Under the pieces are notes generated by a model, which was given only the letters and a program-made list of their open reading frames with translations, was not told where the DNA came from and ran no database searches. A program made the translations under genes and the position numbers. 64,000 nucleotides of DNA from Pseudonocardia sp. C8 (GTDB lineage: Bacteria > Actinomycetota > Actinomycetes > Mycobacteriales > Pseudonocardiaceae), in NCBI RefSeq assembly GCF_014267175.1, contig NZ_JACMTR010000002.1, forward strand, positions 4,241,501-4,305,500. The letters run 5' to 3'. Numbering within the stretch: the first letter of the stretch is position 1; each line of letters begins with the position of its first letter. Below are positions 12,296-53,937 of the stretch, piece by piece.

Positions 12296-13818
12296 CCTCG
12301 TACGTGCTGGGCGTGGACGTCGGCACCACAGCCATCAAGGCCGCCGTGTTCGACGACCTCGGAACGGAGATCTGCAGCCACACCGAGGAGTACTCCCTCC
12401 TCACCCCCAGGGCGGGCCACGTGGAGCTGGAACCGGGCACCTACACGACGACGTTCGCGCTCGCGGTGCGCCGGCTGCTGCAGGGCGGCGCCGTCCCCGT
12501 CGACGCGCTCTCGGCCCTCGGTCTCTCCGCGCAGGGCGAGACGCTGCTGTGCCTCGACGAGAACGACGAGCCGATCAGCCGGGCGATCGTCTGGATGGAC
12601 AACCGGGCCACCGCGGAGTCCGACGACATCGAGGCGCACTTCGGACGTTCCACGATCCACTCGACGACCGGGCAGGTCGCGATGGACCCGATCTATCCGG
12701 CGGCCAAGATCCTCTGGCTGAAGCGCAACGAGCCGGACCTGTTCGCCCGCACGGCGAAGTTCGTGCTGCTCAAGGACTATCTCGTCCACCAGCTGACCGG
12801 TCGCCTCGTCAGCGAGGACTCGCTGCTGTGCTCGACGATCCTCTGGGACATCAACACCCGCGGCTACTGGCCGGAGATGCTCGAGTTCCTCGGCATCACC
12901 GAGGACCAGCTGCCCGAGATCGCAGCCCAGGGCGAGATCGTCGGGAAGGTCGGCCCGGCCGCGGAGGCCGAGCTCGGGCTGCCGGCCGGGCTGCCCGTGT
13001 CGGTGGGTGCCCTCGATCAGGCGTGCGGCGCCCTCGGCATCGGCAACGCCGTCCCCGGCATCTTCTCCGAGAGCACCGGCTCGGCGCTCGCGAGTGTGAC
13101 CATCGTCGAGGAACTCTCGCTCGACCCCTCCGGTCGTGTGCCCTGCTTCGCCGCGGCGCTACCGGGCCAGTACATGCTGCACAACTTCTCCACCGGCGGC
13201 ATGGTCATGCGCTGGTACCGCGACCAGTTCTGTGCCAGCGAGGCCGACATCGAGCGGCTCTGCGGCATCAACGCCTACTACCTCATCGACCAGGAGGTCG
13301 CCGAGGTCGAGCCGGGCTGCGAGGGCCTCGTGGTCGTGCCGCACCTGCAGGGCTCGGGGCCGCCCGACCTGGACCCGAACGCCCGCGGCGTGATCTTCGG
13401 GCTCACCCTCGCCCACGGCAAGCAGCATCTCGCCCGAGCCATCATGGAGGGCGTCGCGATGGTGCTGCGGCGAATGATCGACTCCACCGCGGGCCTCGGA
13501 GTGGAGGTCAAGGAGATCATCTCGCTCAGCGGTGGTTCGAAGAGCGACGCCTGGTGCCAGATCAAGGCCGATGCCACCCAGCTGCCGGTGCGCACCCTCA
13601 GCGGTGCCGGCAGTGCGGCGTGCCGGGGGGCGGCGCTGATCGCGGGCGTCGGTGCGGGCGTCTGGGAGTCCGCCGTGCCCGTCGCGCGGTCCGCCGTCGA
13701 CTACGACCGCACGTTCGAGCCCCGGGCCGAGAACGCCGAGGCCTACGAGCAGCTGCTCACCCGGTTCACCACGCTGCAGGAGCTGCTGAAGCCGCTCCTG
13801 CGGCCGGCCGACAAGTAA
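12292..13818 (+). CDS. FGGY-family carbohydrate kinase (xylulokinase/gluconokinase-like)
   Basis: A 508-residue protein with both FGGY halves: N-terminal DVGTTAIKAAVFD phosphate-1 motif, IVWMDNRA substrate region, and the C-terminal ATP-binding LSGGSKSDAWCQIKAD. FGGY kinases phosphorylate sugars, sugar acids or polyols. Start ATG at 12292 overlaps the TIM-barrel stop. The second-domain serine/threonine loop (ESTGSALAS) and the YMLHNFSTGGMVMRWY block resemble xylulokinase-like members of unknown substrate. Its position suggests it activates the substrate taken up by the downstream MFS protein. Confidence 0.88.
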   Translation: MTSYVLGVDVGTTAIKAAVFDDLGTEICSHTEEYSLLTPRAGHVELEPGTYTTTFALAVRRLLQGGAVPVDALSALGLSAQGETLLCLDENDEPISRAIVWMDNRATAESDDIEAHFGRSTIHSTTGQVAMDPIYPAAKILWLKRNEPDLFARTAKFVLLKDYLVHQLTGRLVSEDSLLCSTILWDINTRGYWPEMLEFLGITEDQLPEIAAQGEIVGKVGPAAEAELGLPAGLPVSVGALDQACGALGIGNAVPGIFSESTGSALASVTIVEELSLDPSGRVPCFAAALPGQYMLHNFSTGGMVMRWYRDQFCASEADIERLCGINAYYLIDQEVAEVEPGCEGLVVVPHLQGSGPPDLDPNARGVIFGLTLAHGKQHLARAIMEGVAMVLRRMIDSTAGLGVEVKEIISLSGGSKSDAWCQIKADATQLPVRTLSGAGSAACRGAALIAGVGAGVWESAVPVARSAVDYDRTFEPRAENAEAYEQLLTRFTTLQELLKPLLRPADK

Positions 13819-13840
13819 CCCCACCCGTTAGGAGCGTCCG

Positions 13841-15202
13841 ATGAAGGATGCAGTGATCATCGGAGGCGGCCTCGCGGGTCTGTCCGCGGCATGGCGCCTT
13901 CGCCACTGGGACATCCAGGTCCTGGAGTCCGACCACCGGATCGGCGGCCGGATCATGTCCGAGAAGCGCGGCCCCTACGTCCTCAACTGGGGCGGCCACA
14001 TGTTCGCCGGAGAGGGCAGCTCCACCACCGCGCTGCTCGCGGAGACCGGCACCCGCTCGATCCGGATCCCCGGCTCGTTGCAGGGCATGGCCATGAACGG
14101 CAAGTTCATCACGACCGGCCCGGTCCAGACCTACCCGTTCCGGTTCCCGATGCCGTTGTCCTCGCGGCTGTCGATCCTCAAGACCGGCGCCAAGCTCGGA
14201 ATCGACGTGCTCCGCTACACCCGCGCGGTCAAGTCCCGTCCCGGTGAGACCGGCGAGGTCCGCCAGCAGCGCATCTACGACTTCGAGAACGACCGCACGT
14301 TCGCCGACTACATCGGACACCTCAACGAGGATCAGAAGAGCTTCTTCCTCCCGCCGGTCACCCGGTCCGCCGCCGACCCGGACCAGCTCTCCGCCGGTGC
14401 CGGGATCGGCTACTTCAGCCTGATCTGGAACATCGGTCAGGGGCTGGGCCGCAGCATTCTCGGTGGCGCCGCCACGCTCACGGAGGGCATCGCCCAGTCC
14501 GTGCGCGACCGCATCGATCTCGGCGCCGATGTCCACGAAGTCGTCCAGAACGCCGACCACGTCGTCGTCCGCTACTCCAAGGACGGTGTGTCGCACGAGG
14601 TCAAGGCGCGTACCGCCGTGCTCGCCACCCCGGCCCCCATCAGCCACAGGCTCGGGGTCAACCTGCCCGATGATCTCCGCGAGGCCCTGTCGAAGATCGT
14701 CTACGGCCCGCACGTCGCCGGGGCGTTCCTCACCGACGAGACCGGCCGGATGCCCTACGACAACACCTACGGCATCGCCGTCGCGAACAAGTCGTTCAGC
14801 GTCGCCCTCAACCAGGGCAACATCGTGCGCGGCCGGGAGGCGGTGCGCCAGCGGGGCGGCAGCATGATGACCTTCTCTCCCGCCAGCCTCGGCCGGCGCC
14901 TCTGGGACCAGGACAAGGACGCCATCGCCAAGACCTACATCGACGAGCTCGACGACATCTTCCCGGGCTTCGCCGACATCGTCACGGAGGCCCGCGTCGA
15001 GAAGTTCGAGTTCGGGTCGCCGTACTGCTTCCCGGGCCGCAGGCACCTGCAGCCGATCCTCACCCGGCCGTCGAAGCGGGTGTTCCTGGCCGGTGACTAC
15101 CTCGGAACGCTCTACACCGAGACCGCCATCAACTCCGGGTTCTCGGCGGCCCAGGAGGCACTGAGCCTGCTGTCCACGCAGCAGCAACGCCCCACGACCT
15201 GA
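13841..15202 (+). CDS. FAD-dependent amine oxidase / protoporphyrinogen-oxidase-like flavoprotein
   Basis: A 453-residue protein with an N-terminal FAD motif IIGGGLAGLSAAWRL, the LESDHRIGGRI loop typical of the flavin amine oxidase superfamily, and a C-terminal FLAGDYLGTLYTETAINSGFSAAQ flavin-contact motif. It may oxidise an amine or dehydrogenate a ring. TTAGGAGCG precedes the ATG at 13841; the gene follows the kinase by 22 bp. Its presence in a sugar-kinase operon is unusual and suggests an amino-sugar or aminated intermediate, but this is inference. Confidence 0.82.
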   Translation: MKDAVIIGGGLAGLSAAWRLRHWDIQVLESDHRIGGRIMSEKRGPYVLNWGGHMFAGEGSSTTALLAETGTRSIRIPGSLQGMAMNGKFITTGPVQTYPFRFPMPLSSRLSILKTGAKLGIDVLRYTRAVKSRPGETGEVRQQRIYDFENDRTFADYIGHLNEDQKSFFLPPVTRSAADPDQLSAGAGIGYFSLIWNIGQGLGRSILGGAATLTEGIAQSVRDRIDLGADVHEVVQNADHVVVRYSKDGVSHEVKARTAVLATPAPISHRLGVNLPDDLREALSKIVYGPHVAGAFLTDETGRMPYDNTYGIAVANKSFSVALNQGNIVRGREAVRQRGGSMMTFSPASLGRRLWDQDKDAIAKTYIDELDDIFPGFADIVTEARVEKFEFGSPYCFPGRRHLQPILTRPSKRVFLAGDYLGTLYTETAINSGFSAAQEALSLLSTQQQRPTT

Positions 15203-44021: not shown

Positions 44022-45002
44022 GAGAGTGTTGTGAATCCGGGTGATCGCGTGGCGTGGGAGCCGTGGTATCGGCGTGGTTGTCGTGATCATCCGGTCGGTG
44101 TGCGTTTGTGTCTGCAAGCCTGCCTATGACTCGTCGCTGACCGATGCTCAGTGGGCGGTGATCGAGCCGCTTCTGCCGACGAGGAGCCCGGCGCTGGGCG
44201 GGCGCCCGCTGGTGCACTCGCGGCGGCTGGTGATCGACACGATCCTGTATGTGCTGGTCAGCGGGTGTGCGTGGCGGCTGGTGCCGCACGACCTGGCACC
44301 GTGGGGCACCGCCTACCGGTGGTTCGCCGCTTGGACCGCCGATGGCACCTGGGCGCGGGTGCATGACACGCTGCGCGACCGGGTCCGAGTCGCTGACGGC
44401 CGGGACCCGCAGCCCTCGGCCGCGGTGCCCGACTCCCAGTCGGCGCGCAGTTCCGAGGGCGGCGAGGCCATCGGCTACGACGCCGGTAAGCGGGTCCGGG
44501 CCGCAAGCGACACCTGCTCGTCTACACGTGCGGGCTGCTGCTGCGCACGATCGTGCACTCGGTTTCGGTGCAGGATCGGGCCGGCGCCAAGCTCGTGCTC
44601 GGTGATCTACGGACACTGTTCCCGCAGGTCGGGCTGGTCTGGGTGGACGGCGGTTACGTCCACTCGGTCGATGCCGGTCTCGTCCGGTGGGCGCACGAGC
44701 AGGAGAATCTCGAGATCGTGTGCGTTCCGCGGAACGCGGACGTGAAAGGCTTCCAGGTGCTGCCCCGTCGCTGGGTGGTGGAACGAACATTCGGCTGGAT
44801 CACGAGGTGCAGACGCTTGGCCCGCGACTACGAACGCAAGACCGCCCACGCCGAGGCCATGATCCAGGTCGCGATGATCCGGCTGATGGCCGTTCGGCTG
44901 GCCGGCGAGGAGATCGAGCCCCGCGGCCCGATCGAGACCGAGGCCTCCCGCCGCCTAGCAGAAGACCTCGCCGACTGATCAACCAGGATCCGAGACACTC
45001 TC
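44022..45002 (+). mobile_element. IS5-family insertion sequence (IS1031-like) with TCA target duplication
   Basis: The left end starts GAGAGTGTTGTG and the right end, read inward, GAGAGTGTCTCG; both continue to a shared ATCC.GG segment (inverted repeats of about 25 bases with mismatches). TCA flanks both sides (44019-44021 and 45003-45005), a TNA-type 3-bp duplication as in the IS1031 group. Length is 981 bp. It carries one interrupted DDE transposase. It inserted at the ferredoxin stop codon. Confidence 0.85.
44041..44978 (+). pseudogene. IS5-type DDE transposase, frame-disrupted
   Basis: Two frames are needed. The first (from about 44041) has LTDAQWAVIEPLLPTRSPALGGRP, ending in GYDAGKRVR near 44495. 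The second continues RKRHLLVYTCGLLL to about 44978, with the second Asp in VWVDGGYVHS and the catalytic Glu in WVVERTFGW. Reading one base back at the CGGG run near 44497 gives the conserved KRVRGRKRHLL. So either one G was lost or translation slips by -1 as in some IS5-family elements. The slip site is not a classic heptamer, so I favour inactivation. Confidence 0.75.
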
Positions 45003-45353
45003 TCAGAGCTCGGTGCACGACACCCCGCGGCGGCGGCCACCGTGGCGGAACGGGTTGACGTAGAGGTCGCGCCGGACCCCGACTTCGACCACGCAGTCCG
45101 ACCGCGGCCGGGCCACGCAGAGCAGGACGTACCCGTCGGCCTCCTGCTCCGGCCGGAGCGCGTACGAGCGGCCCTGCGACTGGTCGACCGTTCCCTCGAT
45201 GATCGTCGCCGCGCACGTCAGGCAGGCCCCGAACCGGCAGCCGTGCGGGAGGCGCAATCCGGCGGCCTCCAGCTCGTCGAGCAGGAACCGGTCGGCGTCG
45301 ACCCGGACCACCCGGCCGTCACGGTTCCGGACCGTGATGTCGTAGGCGGGCAC
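45003..45353 (-). CDS. Plant-type 2Fe-2S ferredoxin
   Basis: A 116-residue ferredoxin with the cluster ligands in GCRFGACLTCAATI and LLCVA (C-x4-C-x2-C then C about 35 residues on). It starts with GTG 45353, one base after the mtoX stop, so the two are tightly coupled. The stop codon is the TCA (reverse TGA) that the IS duplicated, so the C-terminus (SCTEL) appears intact. It could carry electrons for a sulfur-compound oxidation, which is not usual for methanethiol oxidase neighbourhoods. Confidence 0.88.
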   Translation of the reverse strand: MPAYDITVRNRDGRVVRVDADRFLLDELEAAGLRLPHGCRFGACLTCAATIIEGTVDQSQGRSYALRPEQEADGYVLLCVARPRSDCVVEVGVRRDLYVNPFRHGGRRRGVSCTEL

Positions 45354-45354
45354 C

Positions 45355-46713
45355 TCAGAGCCAGATGTCGGAGGTGCAGTCCCCGCCCGGGTAGCGCATC
45401 TCGTGCGCGCGGGCCGGGCCCGCCGGCTCCGCGCCGAAGTCGACCAGGAAGTTCGGGTCGATCTCCATCCCGCCGTTCTCCGGATCACAGTTGATCTTGT
45501 ACATGCGGGAACCCTGCTCGGCCATCGCCGGGTAGAACTGGTTGTCCCAGCTGCTGAACAGCGAGGTGGTGGTGTAGAGCCGCCTGCCGTCCAGCGAGAG
45601 CTGGATCATCTGGGCGGCACCGGCGACCGGCCGCCCGTTGACCTCGTCGGCCTTGCCCAGCAGACCGCCGATCCACACCTGCCCGGTCTGCCGCGGCCGG
45701 GACGGGTCGGTGATGTCGTACTGATTGACGCTGCCGTGCAGCCAGTTCACGAAGTAGAGGTACCGGTCGTCCATCGAGACGAGGATGTCGGTCATCAGGC
45801 CGGGCACCGGGAACGACCAGCCCTCGATCTCGACCGGCGGGACGTCGATGACCTTCTCGACCTCCCACTGCCCGTTCGGCTTATGCCAGTGGAACATGTT
45901 CGAGCTCAGCGCGGCCCCGACGAAGCCGTGCGTGCTGGCCGGGTCGTGGTGGAACCGGACCTCCAGCGGGATCATCCCCTCCTCGCCGAGGTCGACGCTC
46001 CGGGTGAGCGTGCGGTTCTCCCAGTCCCAGAAGTGCAGCCGGCGACCGTACTTGCCCGCCTCGACGTCGGCCAGGTCGAAGCCGCCCAGGTAGGTGTTCG
46101 GCGCCGCCCACTCGCTCGAGATCATCACGTCGTGCCGCGGCTGATACCAGAAGTCGTAGCCGAACTCCATGCCGGTCGCGTCGCGCTCCCACCGGCCCGC
46201 GATCTCGAAGTCGGAGTCGAGCAGCAGGAACCCGCCCGGCCCGTTCCCCTTCCCGTCACCCAGCATGCTGATCATGACGTGGCCGTCGGCCAGGCAGTGC
46301 ACGGTGTGCGGCGCGGTCAGGTCCGCCTTCTCGATCACCTCAGCCGGTTCGATCACCTTGTGCATCCTCGGCGCCCGGGGATCCGCGGTGTCGATCACAT
46401 GGATACGGCCCGAGCGCTGCCCACCGGCGATCAGGAACCGGCGCTCCCGGCTGGCGTCACCGTGACACGAGCTGCACGCGTTCCACCCGAAGTGGTGCAG
46501 CTCGTCACCGACGTTGGGCATCGGCAACCGGTGCACGACCTCCGAGTACGTCGGCGACTCCGGGTCGAGGTCGACTGTGGCCAGGTAGTCCGGCTCCACC
46601 ACATCGGTCCCGGTGTACAGCGCGATCGTGTAGCCGAGCTTCTCCGGCTCGGCGCGCGTGGCCTCCGCCGGTGTCGCGTACCCCGGGCCACAGCATGCCG
46701 ACGACTCACTCAC
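45355..46713 (-). CDS. mtoX: Selenium-binding protein family, methanethiol oxidase-like
   Basis: A 452-residue SBP56-family protein: SSACCGPGYATPAEA near the start, HHFGWNACSSCHGDASRERRFLI, HTVHCL, FGYDFWYQPRHDVMISSEWAAPNT and SLDGRRLYTTTSLFSSWDNQFYP, which are the conserved blocks of methanethiol oxidase. That enzyme converts methanethiol, O2 and water to formaldehyde, H2S and H2O2. The GTG at 46713 follows AAGGAGAG; longer starts lack a ribosome site. Neighbouring sulfide-oxidation genes support the oxidase role over a general selenium-binding role. Symbol given by family and context. Confidence 0.8.
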   Translation of the reverse strand: MSESSACCGPGYATPAEATRAEPEKLGYTIALYTGTDVVEPDYLATVDLDPESPTYSEVVHRLPMPNVGDELHHFGWNACSSCHGDASRERRFLIAGGQRSGRIHVIDTADPRAPRMHKVIEPAEVIEKADLTAPHTVHCLADGHVMISMLGDGKGNGPGGFLLLDSDFEIAGRWERDATGMEFGYDFWYQPRHDVMISSEWAAPNTYLGGFDLADVEAGKYGRRLHFWDWENRTLTRSVDLGEEGMIPLEVRFHHDPASTHGFVGAALSSNMFHWHKPNGQWEVEKVIDVPPVEIEGWSFPVPGLMTDILVSMDDRYLYFVNWLHGSVNQYDITDPSRPRQTGQVWIGGLLGKADEVNGRPVAGAAQMIQLSLDGRRLYTTTSLFSSWDNQFYPAMAEQGSRMYKINCDPENGGMEIDPNFLVDFGAEPAGPARAHEMRYPGGDCTSDIWL

Positions 46714-46756
46714 GACGCATCTCTCCTTGGAGACGGGTTGGTGCACCACAGCGATC

Positions 46757-46801
46757 GAATGTCCGCACATTCACGCTAGCCGTGTGATCTATGCCATGCA
46801 A
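46757..46801 (-). promoter_or_regulatory. mtoX promoter with overlapping inverted-repeat operator
   Basis: On the minus strand TTGCAT (46801-46796), 17 bp, TAGCGT (46778-46773). Directly downstream is GAATGTCCGCACATTC (46757-46772 on plus), perfect 6-base arms around CCGC. The same pattern appears before the sqr and persulfide-dioxygenase genes. Confidence 0.75.
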
Positions 46802-46874
46802 GGCTTGACCATGGGCCGGGCCTGCGACCACACACCGGACATTGTCTGTCTACGTGACCCAGATATGGGTACTC

Positions 46875-47714
46875 TTACGCGGCCGCGCCGAGCCCCAGCG
46901 CGCTCTCCACCCCGACGGCACCTCCGACGAGGAGCAGCAGCAGGGCGAAACCGCGGTGCAGCGACGCCGACGACAGGCGGTTCCCCGCCAGCTTGCCCGC
47001 CATGGCACCGAGCACCGCAACGGCGACGAACGGGCCGAGCACGCGCCAGTCCACCTCCAGGTCCCCCGCGCGCGCGGCCAGGGAGCTGACCGCGTTGAGG
47101 GTCAGGACCAGCAGTGACGTCCCGATGGCGGCGGGCATCGGCATCCCGAGGACGACCACCAGCGCGGGGACGACGAGGAACCCGCCGCCGACGCCCAGGA
47201 AGCCGGCCAGGAAGCCCACTACCGCTCCCGCGCTGCCCACCCGCAGGGCGCGCACGACCGCCGTCCGCCGCCGAGGCGGCGCGTCGGTCACGGTCCCGCT
47301 CCCGCCCGCACCGCCGGGACCCGGCGGGCCGGGCTCGGGACCGGGGCCGGTGGCGGACCGGCTCCGGAACAGCATCAGCACGGCAACGGCCACGGTGAGC
47401 ACCGAGAACGACAGCAGCAGCACCGACTGGGACACGTTCCGGTTCAGCAGGGTGCCGGCCCATGCCGTGGGGACGCCGGACGCGCCGAACGCGATCCCGG
47501 TCCGCCAGTCGATGGTCCGCTCCCGGAGCCGGGCGAGCACGCCGACCACCGAGATGATGCCGACGACGACGATGCTGCCGGTGGTCGCCGTCCGGCCGTC
47601 CTGACCGAGTGCGTAGACGAGCGCGGGAACGGCGAGCACTCCCCCACCGCCGCCCAGGGTGCCGATGACCAGTCCGACGACCAGTCCCAGCGCACCGGCC
47701 AGGGCACCGGTCAC
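46875..47714 (-). CDS. TauE/SafE-family sulfite/organosulfonate exporter
   Basis: A 279-residue membrane protein of the TSUP family with two repeats of glycine-rich helices (GLVIGTLGGGGGVLAVPALVYALG and AGFLGVGGGFLVVPALVVVLGM) separated by a proline/glycine cytoplasmic loop (GPGPEPGPPGPGGAGG). It probably exports sulfite made from sulfane sulfur. The GTG at 47714 overlaps the rhodanese stop (GTGA). Confidence 0.88.
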   Translation of the reverse strand: MTGALAGALGLVVGLVIGTLGGGGGVLAVPALVYALGQDGRTATTGSIVVVGIISVVGVLARLRERTIDWRTGIAFGASGVPTAWAGTLLNRNVSQSVLLLSFSVLTVAVAVLMLFRSRSATGPGPEPGPPGPGGAGGSGTVTDAPPRRRTAVVRALRVGSAGAVVGFLAGFLGVGGGFLVVPALVVVLGMPMPAAIGTSLLVLTLNAVSSLAARAGDLEVDWRVLGPFVAVAVLGAMAGKLAGNRLSSASLHRGFALLLLLVGGAVGVESALGLGAAA

Positions 47715-48052
47715 GCGACGGTCCCGGGCTCGCCGTCCTCGCCGGCGAACGGCAGGCCCGCGGCCGCCCAGGCCTTCATGCCCCCGGCCAGGTTGCGGGC
47801 GTCGACGCCGGCGCCGGCGAGCGCGGCGGCGGCCGTGGCGGAACGGTTCCCGGAGCGGCAGATGGCGACGACCGTCCGGTCTCGGTCGAACCGCGCCGGG
47901 TCGAGGTCGCCGAGCGGGGCGTGGAATGCGCCCTCGATGTGCCCGGCCCGCCACTCCTCGGGCTCGCGCACGTCGAGGAGCAGCGCACCCCGGGCGGCGA
48001 GCTCGCGGGCGCCCGCCGGATCGGTCTGCGGGATCTCGTCGGGTGCAGTCAT
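47711..48052 (-). CDS. Single-domain rhodanese
   Basis: A 113-residue rhodanese: LLLDVREPEEWRAGHIEGAFHAPL and the active-site loop CRSGNRSAT with its catalytic cysteine, ending in GGMKAWAAAGLP. It transfers sulfane sulfur, for example between persulfides and sulfite. Between sqr (25 bp upstream) and tauE (4-bp overlap) it forms a sulfide-detoxification operon. Confidence 0.93.
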   Translation of the reverse strand: MTAPDEIPQTDPAGARELAARGALLLDVREPEEWRAGHIEGAFHAPLGDLDPARFDRDRTVVAICRSGNRSATAAAALAGAGVDARNLAGGMKAWAAAGLPFAGEDGEPGTVA

Positions 48053-48077
48053 CGTCGGGTCCCTTCTGGACGGTCGA

Positions 48078-49274
48078 TCAGGCGAGCCCGCGCAGCATCG
48101 CGTTCCAGTACAGGGCCGGCAGCCCGTACCGCTTCAGGTACCACATGTCGCGGCGCTCCTTGATCGTGTCGATGTAGGGCAACGACGGCGTCGGCGTCAT
48201 CGAGTAGTCGAACTCGGCGAGCAGCATGTGCTTCCGCGACGTCGTGAGGGGGCAGGAGGCATAGCCCCCGTAGCGGGCACCGGGAGCACGGCCCGCCATC
48301 ACCGCGCGGAGGTTCTCCACGACGACCGGGGCCTGCTTGCGGATCGCGGCGCCGGTCTTCGAGTTCGGTGACGAGCCGGCGTCCCCGAGTGCGAAGACGT
48401 TCGGGTAGCGCGTGTGCTGCATCGTGTGCTTGTCGATCTCGACGTAGCCTGCGGGCGAGTTCGGGTCGGCCAGGGCCGTCTTCTTCACCCAGTCCGGGGC
48501 ACTCTGCGGGGGCACCGCGTGCAGCACGTCGTAGGACAGGGTCGTCGTGGCGTCGCCGGCGGCATGGTCGACGACGGCGATCTCCTTCTTGGCGGTGTCG
48601 ACCGAGGTCATCTCGCTCTGGAAGTGGACGTGGATGCCGTACCGGTTCGCGACCCGCTCCAGGACCGCCGCAAACTCGGGCACGCCGAACATGCCCGGGG
48701 TCGGCAGTACCAGGTGCACGTCGATGTCACGCAGCACCCCCTGCTGCCGCCAGTGGTCGGCCGCGAGGTAGGCGATCTTCTGCGGGGCTCCCGCGCACTT
48801 GATCGGACCGCTGGGCATCGTGAACACCGCGCTGCCCCGGCGGAGCTCGCGCACGAACGACCAGGTCGCGGGGGCGAGCTCGTAGCGGTAGTTGCTGGAC
48901 ACCCCGTCCCGCCCCAGCGCGTCGGACAGCCCGGTGACCTTGGCCCAGTCGAGCTGGATGCCCGGGCACATCACGAGGTAGGAGTACTCGACGCTCGTCC
49001 CGTCGACGAGGTCGACCGTACGGGCGTCCGGATCCACCGACACCGCGGCCTTCCGGATCCAGGTGACCCCCTTGGGCATCACCGACGCCTGCGGTCGCGC
49101 ACTCTCTTCCACCGGCGCCCGTCCGCCGCCGACCAGGGTCCATAGCGGTTGGTAGTAGTGCGTGACCGCGGGCTCGATCACCGCGACGTCGTGCTCGCCG
49201 GCCCGGCGCAGGCGCGCCGCGACGCTGATACCGGCACTGCCGCCGCCGACGATCAGGATCCGGTGTCCAGACAT
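48078..49274 (-). CDS. Sulfide:quinone oxidoreductase-like flavoprotein
   Basis: A 398-residue FAD disulfide-reductase-fold protein: ILIVGGGSAGISVAARL, HYYQPLWTLVGGG (SQR-type), the cysteine in PSGPIKCAGAPQKIAYLAADHW, ALGDAGSSPNSKTGAAIRKQAPVVVENL and a C-terminal YDGYASCPL-like segment (GGYASCPLTT). Type II SQR oxidises H2S to persulfide/polysulfide with electrons to quinone. GAGGAGG lies before the ATG at 49274. It is first in the sqr-rhodanese-tauE operon and divergent from the persulfide dioxygenase. Confidence 0.88.
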   Translation of the reverse strand: MSGHRILIVGGGSAGISVAARLRRAGEHDVAVIEPAVTHYYQPLWTLVGGGRAPVEESARPQASVMPKGVTWIRKAAVSVDPDARTVDLVDGTSVEYSYLVMCPGIQLDWAKVTGLSDALGRDGVSSNYRYELAPATWSFVRELRRGSAVFTMPSGPIKCAGAPQKIAYLAADHWRQQGVLRDIDVHLVLPTPGMFGVPEFAAVLERVANRYGIHVHFQSEMTSVDTAKKEIAVVDHAAGDATTTLSYDVLHAVPPQSAPDWVKKTALADPNSPAGYVEIDKHTMQHTRYPNVFALGDAGSSPNSKTGAAIRKQAPVVVENLRAVMAGRAPGARYGGYASCPLTTSRKHMLLAEFDYSMTPTPSLPYIDTIKERRDMWYLKRYGLPALYWNAMLRGLA

Positions 49275-49484
49275 GTGCCCGCCTCCTCTAAATGTACGGA
49301 CATCATAGCGTAGCGCCCTGTGCAACGCCCCCACAATCACCTGAAACGGACAGGGATGCCCGCAACATCGCGCTCTCAGGTGACATGGGCCATACTCACC
49401 GGTGGAATGTTCGCTCATTTACTGCCGTTGAGCAGGTGCCTTGTGGGCGTGTCGCGCCCGTCGATGAGAGGACCGGACCGAGCG
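49275..49484. promoter_or_regulatory. Divergent sqr / persulfide-dioxygenase control region with two operator copies
   Basis: Site 1 at 49290-49305, AAATGTACGGACATCA, overlaps a minus-strand -10 TATGAT (49307-49302). Site 2 at 49405-49420, GAATGTTCGCTCATTT, precedes the dioxygenase gene. Both fit the ATGT-NCGN-ACATT pattern of the mtoX operator (site 2 with one mismatch). Confidence 0.7.
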
Positions 49485-50849
49485 ATGATCACTGTTCTGA
49501 CCGTCGAGACACCCAGCCTGGGGGACCGCAGCTACCTCGCACACGACGGCGAGGTCGCGCTCGTGGTCGACCCCCAGCGCGATCACGACCGGATACGGGC
49601 GCTCGCCGCCGAGACCGGCGTCCGGATCACGCACGTCTTCGAGTCGCACATCCACAACGACTACGTCACCGGCGGGCACGCCCTCGCCCGCGCGACCGGC
49701 GCGCAGTACCTGGTCAACGCCGACGACCCGGTCTCCTTCGAGCGCGTCGGCCTGCACGACGGCGTCGTCGTCGCGGTCGGAAGCATGCGGATCCGGGCCC
49801 TGCACACCCCCGGGCACACCCACACGCACCTGTCGTTCATCCTGGCGGGCGCCGACGGCGAGCCGGTCGCGGTGTTCACCGGCGGTTCATTGCTCTACGG
49901 CTCCACCGGCCGCCCGGATCTGCTGGGGCCGGAGCACACCGCCGACCTCGCCCACGCGCAGTGGCACTCCGCCCGGCGGCTGGCCGCGGAACTCCCCGAC
50001 CGCACCGAGATCTACCCGACCCACGGGTTCGGCAGCTTCTGCTCGGCCACCCAGTCCGGGGGGACCGCCAGCACCATCGGCGCCGAGAAGCGGGCCAACC
50101 CGGCACTGAGCCAGGACGAGGCGACCTGGGTCGAGAACCTGATCGCAGGCCTGGAGGACTACCCCGCCTACTACGCGCACATGGAGCCGGCCAACCTCGC
50201 CGGCCCGACCGAGATCGACCTCTCCGCCCCGGCCGAGGCCGACCCGGCCGAGCTGCGCCGCCGGATCGGGGCCGGCGAGTGGGTCGTCGACCTGCGTACG
50301 CGTACCGCGTTCGCCGCCGGGCATCTCGCCGGCACCGTCAACCTCGGGCTGGACGGGCAGTTCGTCACCTACCTCGGCTGGCTCCTGCCGTGGGGCACGC
50401 CGGTCACGCTGCTCGGCGAGACCGCAGCCGAGGTCGCCGAGGCCCAGCGCGAGCTGGTCCGCATCGGCATCGACCGGCCCGCGGCCATCGCCACCGGCAA
50501 GCCCGAGGACTGGGCGGGCGACGCCTCGCTGCTGCGCGGATTCCCGCAGGCGACCTTCGCCGACCTCGCCGACCGCATCGGGCGTGGGGAGCCGCCGGCC
50601 GTGCTCGACGTCCGGCGGGCGGCGGAGCGCGCACCCGAGTACATCGAGGGGTCGGTCGGCATCCCGATCCACGAGGTCCTGCAGCGCCTCGACGAGGTTC
50701 CGCCCGGCCAGGTCTGGGTGCACTGCGCCGCGGGCTACCGCGCTGCGATCGTCGCGAGCCTGCTCGACGCCCGCGGGCACGACGTCGTCGCCGTGGACGA
50801 CGCGTTCGGCAACGCCCGGGCGGCCGGGTTGCCGATGGCCCACGGCTAG
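49485..50849 (+). CDS. Persulfide dioxygenase-rhodanese fusion (MBL fold plus two rhodanese domains)
   Basis: A 454-residue protein: a beta-lactamase-fold domain (residues about 1-245) with ESHIHNDYVTGG and HTPGHTHTHLSF metal-binding histidines, as in ETHE1/PDO; then a first rhodanese-like domain without the catalytic cysteine (WLLPWGTPVTLLGE) and a second with it (VWVHCAAGYRAA). It oxidises glutathione- or similar persulfide to sulfite and recycles sulfane sulfur. The low-molecular thiol in an actinobacterium would be mycothiol. ATG at 49485; no strong ribosome site seen. Confidence 0.92.
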   Translation: MITVLTVETPSLGDRSYLAHDGEVALVVDPQRDHDRIRALAAETGVRITHVFESHIHNDYVTGGHALARATGAQYLVNADDPVSFERVGLHDGVVVAVGSMRIRALHTPGHTHTHLSFILAGADGEPVAVFTGGSLLYGSTGRPDLLGPEHTADLAHAQWHSARRLAAELPDRTEIYPTHGFGSFCSATQSGGTASTIGAEKRANPALSQDEATWVENLIAGLEDYPAYYAHMEPANLAGPTEIDLSAPAEADPAELRRRIGAGEWVVDLRTRTAFAAGHLAGTVNLGLDGQFVTYLGWLLPWGTPVTLLGETAAEVAEAQRELVRIGIDRPAAIATGKPEDWAGDASLLRGFPQATFADLADRIGRGEPPAVLDVRRAAERAPEYIEGSVGIPIHEVLQRLDEVPPGQVWVHCAAGYRAAIVASLLDARGHDVVAVDDAFGNARAAGLPMAHG

Positions 50850-50951: not shown

Positions 50952-51311
50952 GTGCCGGGACTGGGCGAGCTCGAGAGTCGGGTGATGGCCGCACTCTGGG
51001 ATGCGCACGGCCCGCAGACCGTCCGGGCGGTGCACACCGCCCTGTCCGGTGAGCGGTCGCTGGCCTACACGACCGTCATGACCGTGCTGGACAACCTGCA
51101 CGGCAAGGGCTGGGTGCATCGCTACCGGGAGGGCCGGGCCTGGGCCTACGTCCCGGCACGGGCCCGGGAGGAAGCCGGTGCCGAGATGCTCCGCGAGATC
51201 CTCGACTCGCTCGGCGATCCGCAGGGCGTGCTGTTGCACTTCGCTCGCGGCATGGACGAGCGCGAGTCCGAGTTCCTGCGCCGAGCCCTGTCGGAAGAGG
51301 AGGCCGAGTGA
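50952..51311 (+). CDS. blaI: BlaI/MecI/CopY-family repressor
   Basis: A 119-residue winged-helix protein: ELESRVMAALWDAHGPQTVRAVHTAL and YTTVMTVLDNLHGKGWVHRYREGRAWAYVPA, the standard BlaI DNA-binding domain, plus a short dimerisation tail. It starts with GTG 50952 and its stop overlaps the M56 gene (GTGA). A CTACTA/TAGTAG repeat at 52309-52326 before the DsbA operon is a likely operator. Confidence 0.92.
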   Translation: MPGLGELESRVMAALWDAHGPQTVRAVHTALSGERSLAYTTVMTVLDNLHGKGWVHRYREGRAWAYVPARAREEAGAEMLREILDSLGDPQGVLLHFARGMDERESEFLRRALSEEEAE

Positions 51312-52246
51312 CGATCGCGCTCGCGCTGCTGCTCGCCGCCGGCGCGCTGGGCGTGACCGGGCCGTGGTACCTGCGCCCGGCCGGAAATCCGCGGGTGCAT
51401 CCGGCACTCGCGCTGTCGGCCTGGGTGGTCACGCTGGTGACGGCGGCGTCGTCGGCCGTCACGGCCGCTGCGGTGCTCGTGCTGCCCGATCCCTCTGTGC
51501 CGGACGGCATGCTCGGGATCGCGGTGGTCTGCTGGCAAGCGGTGTCCCGAGGCGCCGAACTGCCGTGGCTGCTGTTCGCGCGGCTCGTCGCGGGGATCAC
51601 GCTGCTCGTGCTGCTGACCCGGGTCGCAGCGCTGTTCGGTCGCGCCCTGCGGACCGAGCGGCGGCACCGGATCGATCGCGTCGGGGCACTGCGCGCGGTT
51701 GCGGAGGTGCGCGACGGGGTCTGGTGGATCCCGTCCGACGACCCGGTGGCGTTCTCGGTCGGCGGTGGCCGCCGCGGGATCGTCGTCGCCTCGACCGGGC
51801 TGCGCCGGTTCGACGCCGACACGGTCGCGGCAGTGCTCGCTCACGAGCGGGCCCACGTACGGGGGCGGCACCACCTGGCCGTCGCGCTCGCCCACGCCGC
51901 GGCGGCGGCGTTACCGCACGTCCCGCTCTGCCGGCAGGCGCCGGGTGCGATCGGTGTGCTGTGCGAGCTCGCGGCCGATGCCGCCGCCGTGCGGCGGTGC
52001 GGGCCGGAGGCGGTGACCCGGGCGGTGCAGGTACTGGCGACCGGACCGGGCGCTCCGCGCGGCGCCGTCGGCTTCGACGCGTTCCCCGAGGCCCGGCGGT
52101 CCTGGCTGAGCTCCCGGCGCTCGGCCCTGCTGCGCGGCGCCGGTGCGGCCGCCCGGGTCACGACCGGCGGGATGGCGCTCGTGCCCGCCGCACTGCCCGC
52201 GGCCGGCGCGATCGCGCTGGTGCTCGCGGTCTGCGTGTCCGCCTGA
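51308..52246 (+). CDS. BlaR1/M56-family membrane metallopeptidase
   Basis: A 312-residue protein: three hydrophobic segments at the N-terminus, the zinc-peptidase motif HERAH (residues 179-183) within VLAHERAHVRGRHHLAVAL, and two more hydrophobic stretches. The M56 family cleaves the partner BlaI repressor upon signal. There is no C-terminal penicillin-binding sensor domain, as in most actinobacterial members, so the stimulus is unknown. Confidence 0.88.
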   Translation: MTIALALLLAAGALGVTGPWYLRPAGNPRVHPALALSAWVVTLVTAASSAVTAAAVLVLPDPSVPDGMLGIAVVCWQAVSRGAELPWLLFARLVAGITLLVLLTRVAALFGRALRTERRHRIDRVGALRAVAEVRDGVWWIPSDDPVAFSVGGGRRGIVVASTGLRRFDADTVAAVLAHERAHVRGRHHLAVALAHAAAAALPHVPLCRQAPGAIGVLCELAADAAAVRRCGPEAVTRAVQVLATGPGAPRGAVGFDAFPEARRSWLSSRRSALLRGAGAAARVTTGGMALVPAALPAAGAIALVLAVCVSA

Positions 52247-52308
52247 CCCTCACGCCGGGACCCAATTGACCGGACATTCACACGGCCTACTACCGTCCTC
52301 ACGGTAAC

Positions 52309-52326
52309 TACTATTTCGTTAGTAGA
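52309..52326. promoter_or_regulatory. BlaI-type operator before the DsbA operon
   Basis: CTACTA and TAGTAG are perfect 6-base arms around TTTCGT, ending 10 bases before the GTG of the DsbA-like gene. BlaI/MecI operators are of the TACTA/TAGTA type. A further CCTACTACC half lies at about 52288-52296. Confidence 0.7.
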
Positions 52327-52336
52327 AGGGGTCGGT

Positions 52337-53080
52337 GTGGGACGCACATCCGGAACACTCGAACGGCGGGGCCGGCGTCGGGACGTGGCGATCGTCGCCG
52401 TCCTGGTGGTCGTGGCCGTCGCCCTGATCGGGTACCTGGTCACCGGCGGGCCCGGCTCGGACCCGGCCGAGGACACGGAGGCCGCACCGGCTGCGCCGTC
52501 CGGGGCGAGCGCCGAGGTCGGGCCGCTGGGCGACATCGCCCGCCGGCAGGAGGGCGACCCGCTCGCGCTGGGCCGGGCCGACGCGCCAGTGGTTATGACG
52601 ATCTTCTCCGACTACCGCTGCCCGTTCTGCGCGAAGTTCAGCCGGGAGACCGAGCAGCAGCTGATCGACGAGTACGTCGACGACGGCCGGCTGCGGCTGG
52701 AGTGGCGGGACTATCCGATTTTCGGGCCGGAATCCACGGTCGCCGCGCACGCCGGTCGGGCGGCCGCGTTGCAGGGAATGTTCTGGGAGTACAACCGGGC
52801 GCTCTACGCCGACACACCCGAGCGCGCCAAGCCCGACCTGCCGGAAGACAAGCTGATCGCCTACGCCGAGCAGATCGGTGTCCCGGACATGGCGAGGTTC
52901 CGCGCCGACATGGACTCGCCCGAGGTGGCAGGGGCGGTGGACAGGGATCTCGACGAGGGCAGCGCGCTCGGCGTGCCGAGCACTCCGTCGTTCGTGGTGA
53001 ACGGGTACCCGATCATGGGCGCGCAGCCGGTCGAACGGTTCCGTGCGCAGATCGACCGGGCGCTGGCGGCCGCGTCGTGA
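52337..53080 (+). CDS. DsbA-family thioredoxin-fold oxidoreductase, membrane-anchored
   Basis: A 247-residue protein: an N-terminal transmembrane anchor (residues about 18-38), a flexible Ala/Pro linker, then a thioredoxin-4 domain with the active site C95-P-F-C98 in SDYRCPFCAKFS and the cis-proline loop GVPSTPSFVVNG. It forms or isomerises disulfides outside the membrane. The stop overlaps the CcdA-like gene (GTGA). Confidence 0.9.
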   Translation: MGRTSGTLERRGRRRDVAIVAVLVVVAVALIGYLVTGGPGSDPAEDTEAAPAAPSGASAEVGPLGDIARRQEGDPLALGRADAPVVMTIFSDYRCPFCAKFSRETEQQLIDEYVDDGRLRLEWRDYPIFGPESTVAAHAGRAAALQGMFWEYNRALYADTPERAKPDLPEDKLIAYAEQIGVPDMARFRADMDSPEVAGAVDRDLDEGSALGVPSTPSFVVNGYPIMGAQPVERFRAQIDRALAAAS

Positions 53081-53937
53081 CCGGCGTCGGTCTGCTGACG
53101 GCCTTCCTGGGCGGATTGCTGTCCTTGATCAGCCCGTGCGCGGCGCTGCTGTTGCCGTCGTTCTTCGCCTACGCCTTCGACCGGGTGGGAACGCTGGTCG
53201 GTCGTACGCTGACGTTCCTCGCCGGCCTGCTGACCGTGCTGGTACCGCTCGGCGCCGGCGTCGCGCTGGTCGGTGCGATGATCACCCAGTACCGGGGTGC
53301 CGTGACGGCCGCCGGTGGGCTCCTGCTGGTCGGATTCGGCGTGCTCAGCATCCTCGGGATCGGCTTCGGCAGCACTACCGCGGGCCGGCTCGCCGGGCGG
53401 ATCCGGATCTCCGGTCCGGTCTCGACCTTCACGCTGGGCACGGTCTACGGTCTCGCCGGCTTCTGCTCCGGTCCGCTGCTCGGCAGTGTCCTGACCGTCG
53501 CCGCGGTGGGGTCCGAACCCGGCTACGGCGCAGCGCTGCTGGCCGCGTACGCGGTCGGGATGGCTGCTCCGCTGTTCGTGCTCGCGTTGCTGTGGGACCG
53601 CTTCGGGCTGTCCGGCAAGCAGTGGCTGCGCGGCCGGGAGGTGCGTCTCGGACCGCTGCGCAGCCACTCGACGAGCCTGATCTCGGGCTTGCTGTTCGTC
53701 GGGATCGGTCTGCTCTTCCTGCTCACCGAGGGCACGGCCGGTCTCGTCGCGCCCACCACGGTCGACCAGCAGGCCGATCTCCAGAACACCGTCGGGGACC
53801 TGTTCGGCGGTGTGCCCGACGCGGCCGTCCTGCTGGGGATCGTCCTGGTCGCCCTGGCGATGATGGCGTTCCGGCTCCTGCGTCGCCACGGCTCACCGGC
53901 CGCGACCGACGAGCGGGAGCGGGAGGGGACACGATGA
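53077..53937 (+). CDS. CcdA/DsbD-type thiol-disulfide membrane transporter
   Basis: A 286-residue membrane protein with about six to seven helices and the paired cysteines of CcdA in LISPCAALLLPSF and LAGFCSGPLLGS. It passes reducing power through the membrane to exported thioredoxin-like partners. Start GTG 53077 overlaps the DsbA-like stop; its stop overlaps the next gene (ATGA). The first cysteine is in SPCAALLLPS rather than the usual SPCVLPLLP, so the pair is typical but not textbook. Confidence 0.88.
   Translation: MTGVGLLTAFLGGLLSLISPCAALLLPSFFAYAFDRVGTLVGRTLTFLAGLLTVLVPLGAGVALVGAMITQYRGAVTAAGGLLLVGFGVLSILGIGFGSTTAGRLAGRIRISGPVSTFTLGTVYGLAGFCSGPLLGSVLTVAAVGSEPGYGAALLAAYAVGMAAPLFVLALLWDRFGLSGKQWLRGREVRLGPLRSHSTSLISGLLFVGIGLLFLLTEGTAGLVAPTTVDQQADLQNTVGDLFGGVPDAAVLLGIVLVALAMMAFRLLRRHGSPAATDEREREGTR

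Follow-up and report, generated by a model that had tools for sequence, protein, structure and literature searches.

Within a 64,000-nucleotide stretch of Pseudonocardia sp. C8 (contig NZ_JACMTR010000002.1, positions 4,241,501 to 4,305,500; hereafter the window, in whose coordinates we give the features), genes of families that handle methanethiol, sulfide and persulfide lie together, and a short inverted repeat recurs in front of them. We propose that this palindrome, (A/G)AATGTNCGNACATT(T/C), is very probably the operator of a HutC-subfamily GntR repressor, likely the protein encoded at C2:5204316-5205116, and that the units it precedes are repressed together and opened by a sulfur metabolite (G, L and C numbers are our handles for genomes, loci and contigs).

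Pfam searches found the mtoX, ferredoxin, TauE, rhodanese, SQR and pdo-like genes clustered just as a preliminary description of the window had listed them, and the families present back its reading of a gene set leading from methanethiol or sulfide to sulfite. Start codons were assigned by reading frame and Shine-Dalgarno sequence (the Pfam run used the SBP56 frame from 46770); scores in bits for the repeats come from a symmetric weight matrix built from 34 sites in 17 loci, all in other genomes.

45003-45353, minus strand: fdx, a [2Fe-2S] plant-type ferredoxin gene directly downstream of the SBP56 gene (Pfam Fer2, 8.8e-16)
45355-46713, minus strand: SBP56/SELENBP1-like methanethiol oxidase candidate ('mtoX'), GTG start at 46713 (PF05694, 704.5 bits)
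46757-46772: predicted operator 1, a perfect palindrome in the mtoX-fdx promoter (matrix 21.7 bits; exact match in the genome)
46875-47714, minus strand: TauE/SafE-type exporter gene (PF01925, 4e-45)
47711-48052, minus strand: single-domain rhodanese gene (PF00581, 5.7e-19)
48078-49274, minus strand: sqr, sulfide:quinone oxidoreductase (E 6e-101 against mitochondrial SQOR structures)
49290-49305: predicted operator 2, in the sqr promoter or leader, abutting the Shine-Dalgarno sequence (27.1 bits)
49405-49420: predicted operator 3, in the pdo promoter, 115 bp from operator 2 (21.8 bits)
49485-50849, plus strand: pdo, a metallo-beta-lactamase (MBL)-rhodanese fusion, persulfide-dioxygenase-like (Pfam; PDB 3tp9, 6.5e-57; 3r2u, 1.2e-46)
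50952-51311, plus strand: neighbouring BlaI/MecI-type repressor gene, probably not the regulator of the operators (PF03965, 4.4e-25)
51308-52246, plus strand: neighbouring M48/M56-type peptidase gene (PF01435, 1.8e-07; PF05569 below cut-off)
52264-52279: predicted operator 4, in the dsbA-ccdA promoter region, new relative to the preliminary description (23.3 bits)
52309-52324: TACTA-TAGTA box, probably a BlaI site, lying between operator 4 and dsbA (sequence search)
52337-53080, plus strand: DsbA-like thioredoxin-fold gene (PF13462, 1e-28)
53077-53937, plus strand: CcdA/DsbD transmembrane gene (PF02683, 1.5e-09)

Number and strength of the sites

All three palindromes of the preliminary description are present where it placed them, but the sites number four, the fourth being that at 52264-52279. 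Operators 1 to 3 lie upstream of their start codons, by 44 nt at mtoX, 16 nt at sqr and 65 nt at pdo. With up to three mismatches allowed, the window has 5 occurrences of GAATGTNCGNACATTC where 0.87 would be expected, a count reached by none of 100 shuffles; with up to two, the whole genome has 5, of which 2 are in the cluster, and has none of the reversed control. The exact core AATGTNCGNNCAT has 3 places in the 6.24-Mb genome, all of them the sites first described. Matches to WTGWNCGNWCAT number 9 genome-wide, 4 of them in the cluster (reversed control, 3 on each strand), giving a binomial p = 6e-10 for a 9.1-kb region that was chosen afterwards; the five places outside the cluster score 12.6-18.0 bits, below all four cluster sites. 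These four also head the matrix scores in the window, at 49290 (27.1 bits), 52264 (23.3), 49405 (21.8) and 46757 (21.7), the fifth reaching 12.1 bits, and 6.2 Mb of simulated sequence held no score of 21.66 or above. The inverted repeat is genuine and exceeds chance by a wide margin. A scan for the sigma-70 promoter consensus (-35/-10) found none, so the placement of the sites relative to a -10 element, to which the preliminary description had appealed for mtoX and sqr, is unconfirmed.

The operator and a GntR/HutC-type gene across genomes

Our results agree with the preliminary description that the window lacks a matching regulator gene, the likely regulator lying about 0.9 Mb from the cluster; its guess of an ArsR or CsoR type gave way, on comparative evidence, to a GntR/HutC protein with a UTRA domain. 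All three relatives' loci with a close SBP56 copy (L093, L094 and L095) are sulfur clusters with a GntR-UTRA gene inside (Pfam on L093 and L095). The gene at C2:5204316-5205116 is the ortholog of the L093 regulator, 86% identical, and a 56-58% identical GntR paralog lies at C2:6101955. The domains of the proposed regulator family (L123:8317-9120) are PF00392 (35.5 bits, cut-off 27) and PF07702 (105.7 bits, cut-off 23.8). Orthologs of sqr (E 1e-90 or better) occur in 14 of 62 genomes of the genus, and 8 of the 14 have a GntR-UTRA gene within 5 kb (in one of these, G044, sqr is broken), a proximity with p ~2e-17 against random placement at about two family members per genome, kinship ignored. 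The six sqr genomes with no regulator nearby are the window's own, G009, G059 (where a fragment alone matches at the usual place), G019 (18.6 kb) and G006 and G032 (other contig). The gene order gntR-rhodanese-tauE is recurrent in the genus. Since first-look candidates were partly scored in the SBP56, HTH_5, sqr and regulator searches, family counts here and below are lower bounds.

The window genome's regulator falls in a clade of 13 (clade i; support 100/99), 8 of which carry the operator, with at most one mismatch, before their own gene, at -20/-21 in six; the corresponding figure for regulators outside clade i, at two mismatches or fewer, is 9 of 52. The 319 kb of cluster loci hold 33 matrix sites of at least 18 bits, those used for training among them, whereas the 560 kb of control loci hold 1. 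In 17 control loci with another SBP56 type (265 kb) one site reached 16 bits, before a pdo-like gene, and in 35 loci of the paralog type (295 kb) none did. Across the order, 14 of 298 genomes hold the exact palindrome AATGTNCGNACATT and 11 of those 14 hold the regulator, which was found in 27 of the 298, a lower bound as eight first-look candidates were scored per genome; the association has a Fisher p of 1.2e-10, or 1.0e-9 with the window's genome left out, kinship ignored. In the ten genomes besides the window's that have both, each of the 11 exact sites is found 4-128 bp away from the stretch matched as gntR. Outside the genus, 25 of 28 regulator matches had loci; a site of at least 16 bits was present in 18 of these 25 (about 1.5 kb each side), and tauE or pdo in 16. 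The wider pattern AATGWNCGNWCATT has 79 matches spread over 44 of the genus's 62 genomes, compared with 9 matches to its reversed control (hand sums). Operator 4 has a near-identical counterpart at the same place in G026 (L362:5951), TATTGACCGGACATTC, at 21.7 bits; at three loci from other genera (L392, L395 and L398) the regulator has dsbA-dsbD genes next to it, and on plasmid pMYC1 of M. adipatum a dsbA-like gene lies about 5 kb from it. Comparative genomics thus strongly supports the predicted link between operator and regulator, and with it the earlier suggestion of one shared operator and one regulator for all units; that the regulator represses is inferred from its family and from the position of the sites.

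Several findings weigh against this assignment. In the window's own genome the regulator gene is unlinked to the cluster and keeps a half-site (4 mismatches) in front, as do the regulators of G002 and G046, with one operator half at the same place. The regulator genes of clade iii (G006, G057, G007, G005, G023 and one of two G027 copies) are preceded by no site with two mismatches or fewer, although their neighbours may carry sites. Three genomes (G120, G215 and G330) have the exact palindrome and no detected regulator. The reversed control TTACANGCNTGTAA is found in 59 of the 298 genomes (hand count), more than the palindrome, mainly in one genus (family f15, genus g42) at about one place per genome; because this control is commoner than the palindrome across the order, it is site position, and not site number, that carries the case at that level. 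Of the four mtoX genes, two (in the window and in G006) have their own operator; that of G057 follows sqr, and for that of G004 there is no site of 15 bits or more. Lastly, a pdo, tauE or dsbA homolog (BLAST) was present at 8 of 20 chosen stretches around further exact sites in the genus (L347, L349, L353, L357, L358, L362, L363 and L365). As a separate matter, TTACANGCNTGTAA, present in most genomes of genus g42, may itself be the conserved site of something unrelated.

Genes faced by others of these sites include a rhodanese (L361, Pfam), a pyridoxal-phosphate (PLP) enzyme (L350), a flavin adenine dinucleotide protein (L346), a major facilitator superfamily transporter (L348) and a thiolase (L364). 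Such a mixture implies either that the regulon exceeds sulfide handling or that related regulators share the box. A wider regulon, possibly touching mycothiol, is hinted at by the genes that relatives' operators also face: those for PF03601 membrane proteins (L362:2283-4627), a CysS/MshC-like ligase (L271:6831-8048), a cysteine-synthase-like PLP enzyme (L350:3415-4545) and more rhodaneses (L361:3196-3810). Genes for 4Fe-4S and NrfD proteins, with operator-like sites in front, stand beside the cluster in G006 and G057 (L094:11218-12792; L095:10245-12737), and L095 also holds a gene for a sulfite-dehydrogenase-like molybdopterin oxidoreductase.

Recognition, ligand pocket and a possible mechanism

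In the accessible text of PMC4494728, a gap of four bases separates GT from AC in most HutC operators, which take the form NyGTMTAKACNy; the operator here, GT-NCGN-AC, has the same spacing, with CG and not TA at its centre. NagR reads the G of GT with Arg48 and the preceding base with Arg38, according to the part of PMC4333415 available to us, and in our alignment these residues correspond to Arg55 and Leu45 of the window genome's regulator. Of 65 regulators, 64 have Arg at the first position (the remaining one was not parsed) and none has Arg at the second (one has Lys), which corresponds to the T that the operator has where the NagR operator has G.

The anion-holding Arg133 and Arg135 of NagR align with Arg140 and Arg142. 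As the same part of PMC4333415 describes the sulfate bound in NagR as a mimic of the ligand phosphate, the kept arginine pair makes a sulfur oxyanion such as sulfite or thiosulfate our first guess for the inducer. The regulator has a single cysteine, Cys182; across the regulators a cysteine near 182 is widely kept and a second, near 222, is present in many, so we dropped the argument that a missing conserved cysteine pair speaks against a thiol sensor. A single-cysteine switch in the regulator is possible.

Sitting on or close to the mtoX-fdx, sqr(-rhodanese-tauE), pdo and dsbA-ccdA promoters, repressor dimers would block transcription until sulfide or organosulfur compounds raised the level of a sulfur metabolite, whose entry into the UTRA pocket would open the units together. 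Judging from their families, SBP56 and ferredoxin would then convert methanethiol to sulfide, SQR would convert sulfide to persulfide, the MBL-rhodanese fusion and the rhodanese would take persulfide to sulfite, and TauE would export the sulfite.

At six loci with divergent sqr and pdo the two operators are spaced by 115, 125, 127, 146, 147 and 148 bp, each, in a comparison made post hoc, within 1 bp of whole 10.5-bp turns. The set derives from 20 site pairs, of which 13 closer ones (12-56 bp) were left out, and in L306 and L344 sqr was seen only as pieces. With one off-phase pair from another promoter (81 bp) counted in and kinship ignored, the chance value is 0.002. This phasing hints at a repression loop between the sqr and pdo operators. 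We tentatively put forward, as one possibility, a mobile actinobacterial reactive-sulfur regulon whose HutC/UTRA repressor would sense a small sulfur metabolite through its pocket and not by cysteine-pair chemistry, would loop the sqr and pdo operators, and would be a non-orthologous substitute for CsoR/CstR in the control of enzymes of like kinds.

Enzymes, alternative regulators and related circuits

Close SBP56 orthologs (76-89% identity) were found in 3 other genomes among 149 searched, a lower bound, and in 45 more the SBP56 present is of another type, about 41-45% identical. The name 'mtoX' in the preliminary description is, strictly taken, incorrect: the protein is a SELENBP1-like SBP56 that falls outside the curated MtoX equivalog NF052453 (139.3 bits, cut-off 650). 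Residues H92, H93, H155, H158, D206 and E270 (numbered on the 471-residue open reading frame) are conserved in 81 of 81 sequences; they were matched to the human copper site (HH, HxxH, D, E) by motif and spacing. Mutating the corresponding residues in human SELENBP1 strongly cut activity, in the accessible text of PMC10362175. With the copper-site positions kept, yet the curated family test failed, the predicted methanethiol oxidase reaction is likely but unproven. That failure, the rarity of SELENBP1-like SBP56 in the genus and the recurrence of pdo, rhodanese and tauE beside the regulator would also suit a general sulfide/persulfide regulon in which SBP56 is a passenger with no action on methanethiol in this organism; we regard this as unlikely, though with an appreciable chance of being right, as the SBP56 gene has an operator to itself in two of the four genomes and sits in a sulfur cluster in all four, and the six SELENBP1-matched positions are kept throughout.

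The SBP56-fdx pair recurs in 3 of 3 close relatives. At 57 of 79 eligible distant loci, from many phyla, the SELENBP1-like SBP56 gene is followed within 700 bp by a ferredoxin gene of the same orientation (within 60 bp at 46), and none was found beside 17 SBP56 genes of the other type, which suggests the ferredoxin as a redox partner of the SELENBP1-like class. Ferredoxin goes unmentioned in the accessible portions of PMC10362175 and one further SBP56 paper. At 80 SBP56 loci from other genera, the 80 best among 392 relatives, no sqr, pdo, tauE or gntR homolog scored above 70 bits nearby, the ferredoxin alone being shared.

SQOR-like flavoproteins act with two redox cysteines, and both cysteine stretches of the SQR align with those of the mitochondrial SQOR structures; the one match to a curated SQR model is below its cut-off. 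In persulfide dioxygenases of the ETHE1/CstB type the MBL domain holds iron by His, His and Asp. The MBL-rhodanese protein here keeps both His and has Gly for the Asp, as do 23 of 23 homologs of at least 50% identity; of 16 homologs further removed, 13 keep Asp. The Gly type occurs in the two CsoR-type clusters and the Asp type on the five regulator-bearing plasmids; ScPDO of Streptomyces coelicolor is an active enzyme of a similar circuit, in the accessible part of PMC7533328.

As for the protein that binds, a further point against the clade-i ortholog is that the 58% identical HutC-subfamily paralog at C2:6101955 could bind the same sites and shares the non-Arg/Arg pair at the base-reading positions. 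Control of the cluster by this paralog in the window's genome is nevertheless improbable: 48 of 65 regulators have no site with two mismatches or fewer within 200 bp upstream of their own gene (5 of clade i and 43 others, 36 of the 43 being of the paralog type by our own sorting), the paralog-type sequences fall outside the clade of 13, and 35 of their loci, as noted above, have no site of 16 bits or more.

A persulfide sensor of the CsoR/CstR or ArsR type would follow known sulfide circuits, and the genome offers candidates in two CsoR-family genes and at least 25 matches to HTH_5, the ArsR-type profile (150 of 182 HTH_5 candidates scored). In the accessible text of PMC7533328, S. coelicolor has the equivalent enzyme set under a CsoR-like protein, and CsoR-type genes ('metal-sensitive transcriptional regulator') stand beside such clusters on plasmids L407 and L409. 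Both CsoR genes of the window's genome, however, lie outside the window, the S. coelicolor box ATACCn6GGTAT is absent from it, the palindrome tracks the GntR gene across genomes, and the CsoR-type clusters on L407 and L409 (Streptomyces sp. NA03103 and a Pseudonocardia autotrophica plasmid, found through pdo) lack a matching operator; we therefore rejected this type of regulator as very unlikely, though with no scan of the promoters of the HTH_5 genes. The BlaI-type repressor at 50952-51311, though directly downstream of pdo and with operator 4 in the next promoter, can practically be dismissed, as a separate TACTA-TAGTA box is present, which we take to be the BlaI site, and the palindrome recurs beside GntR genes at loci with no detected blaI homolog. 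Alongside this, the BlaI-M56 peptidase-DsbA-CcdA neighbourhood with its box next to operator 4 may place dsbA under two repressors.

The proposed HutC regulator resembles NagR (YvoA), DasR and PhnF in its PF00392 and PF07702 domains, the GT-N4-AC core and the recognition Arg, and NagR also in the pocket arginine pair; it differs in the CG centre of the operator, the non-Arg residue at the Arg38 position and its sulfur-metabolism targets. The sulfide/persulfide regulators CstR, SqrR and FisR control sqr and persulfide-oxidising genes, as is proposed here, but belong to other protein families, and the regulator here has the single Cys182. With the S. coelicolor CsoR-PDO-rhodanese-TauE circuit (accessible text of PMC7533328) the cluster shares an MBL-rhodanese dioxygenase, a rhodanese and TauE, and it would share control by one self-regulated multi-promoter repressor. 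There, however, the repressor is a CsoR-like protein that responds by Cys37 persulfidation and binds ATACCn6GGTAT, whereas here it would be a HutC protein with a ligand domain and the box AATGTNCGNACATT, and sqr, SBP56-ferredoxin and dsbA-ccdA are added. The mtoX-SCO1/senC-mauG operon of Hyphomicrobium and Ruegeria, as far as the accessible part of PMC5739008 goes, also encodes an SBP56-family candidate methanethiol oxidase, predicted to be periplasmic, with SCO1 and MauG as partners and an IclR gene upstream in Ruegeria, in contrast to the SELENBP1-like SBP56, ferredoxin partner and HutC operator here. The open-licence literature searched yielded no link between GntR/HutC and sqr or persulfide dioxygenase. 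The enzymes and the operator-repressor logic are thus of known kinds, and what we did not find in that literature is a HutC repressor paired with a persulfide/sulfite circuit.

On all five plasmids inspected, of 21 with a regulator homolog, operators of 18.7-30.9 bits (threshold 15) lie near gntR, sqr, rhodanese or tauE; these are R. jostii RHA1 pRHL1, R. pyridinivorans p_4-4_B, an Embleya plasmid, M. adipatum pMYC1 and R. erythropolis PR4 pREL1. In R. erythropolis MI2 grown on 4,4'-dithiodibutyrate versus succinate, a published proteome shows the proteins of one cluster rising together, SQR 4.4- and 7.3-fold, MBL-rhodanese up to 12.7-fold and rhodanese 11-fold, and the accessible part of that report (PMC5157978) names no regulator for the set. 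PR4, with the gene order of the MI2 cluster, has a GntR gene between the fusion and the rhodanese, and by analogy MI2 probably has one as well. The circuit may account for this joint induction of SQR, the MBL-rhodanese fusion and the rhodanese during organic-disulfide breakdown, and its presence on plasmids of the laboratory strains RHA1 and PR4 makes it directly testable. If correct, the assignment would give a regulator, an operator and a gene list for the way a large group of actinobacteria deals with sulfide and persulfide; the regulators described in the literature consulted belong to other families, and a ligand-binding sulfur sensor would differ from the known cysteine-based ones.

Marks of mobility accompany several copies. 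Related clusters are plasmid-borne, and in G036 the cluster is on a 110-kb contig; in G004 it stands between two identical insertion-sequence copies of 1,049 bp (L093:2359-3407 and 12846-13894), an arrangement like that of a composite transposon; and the immediate neighbour of fdx in the window is an IS4/5-type transposase encoded in two overlapping frames (44041-44978).

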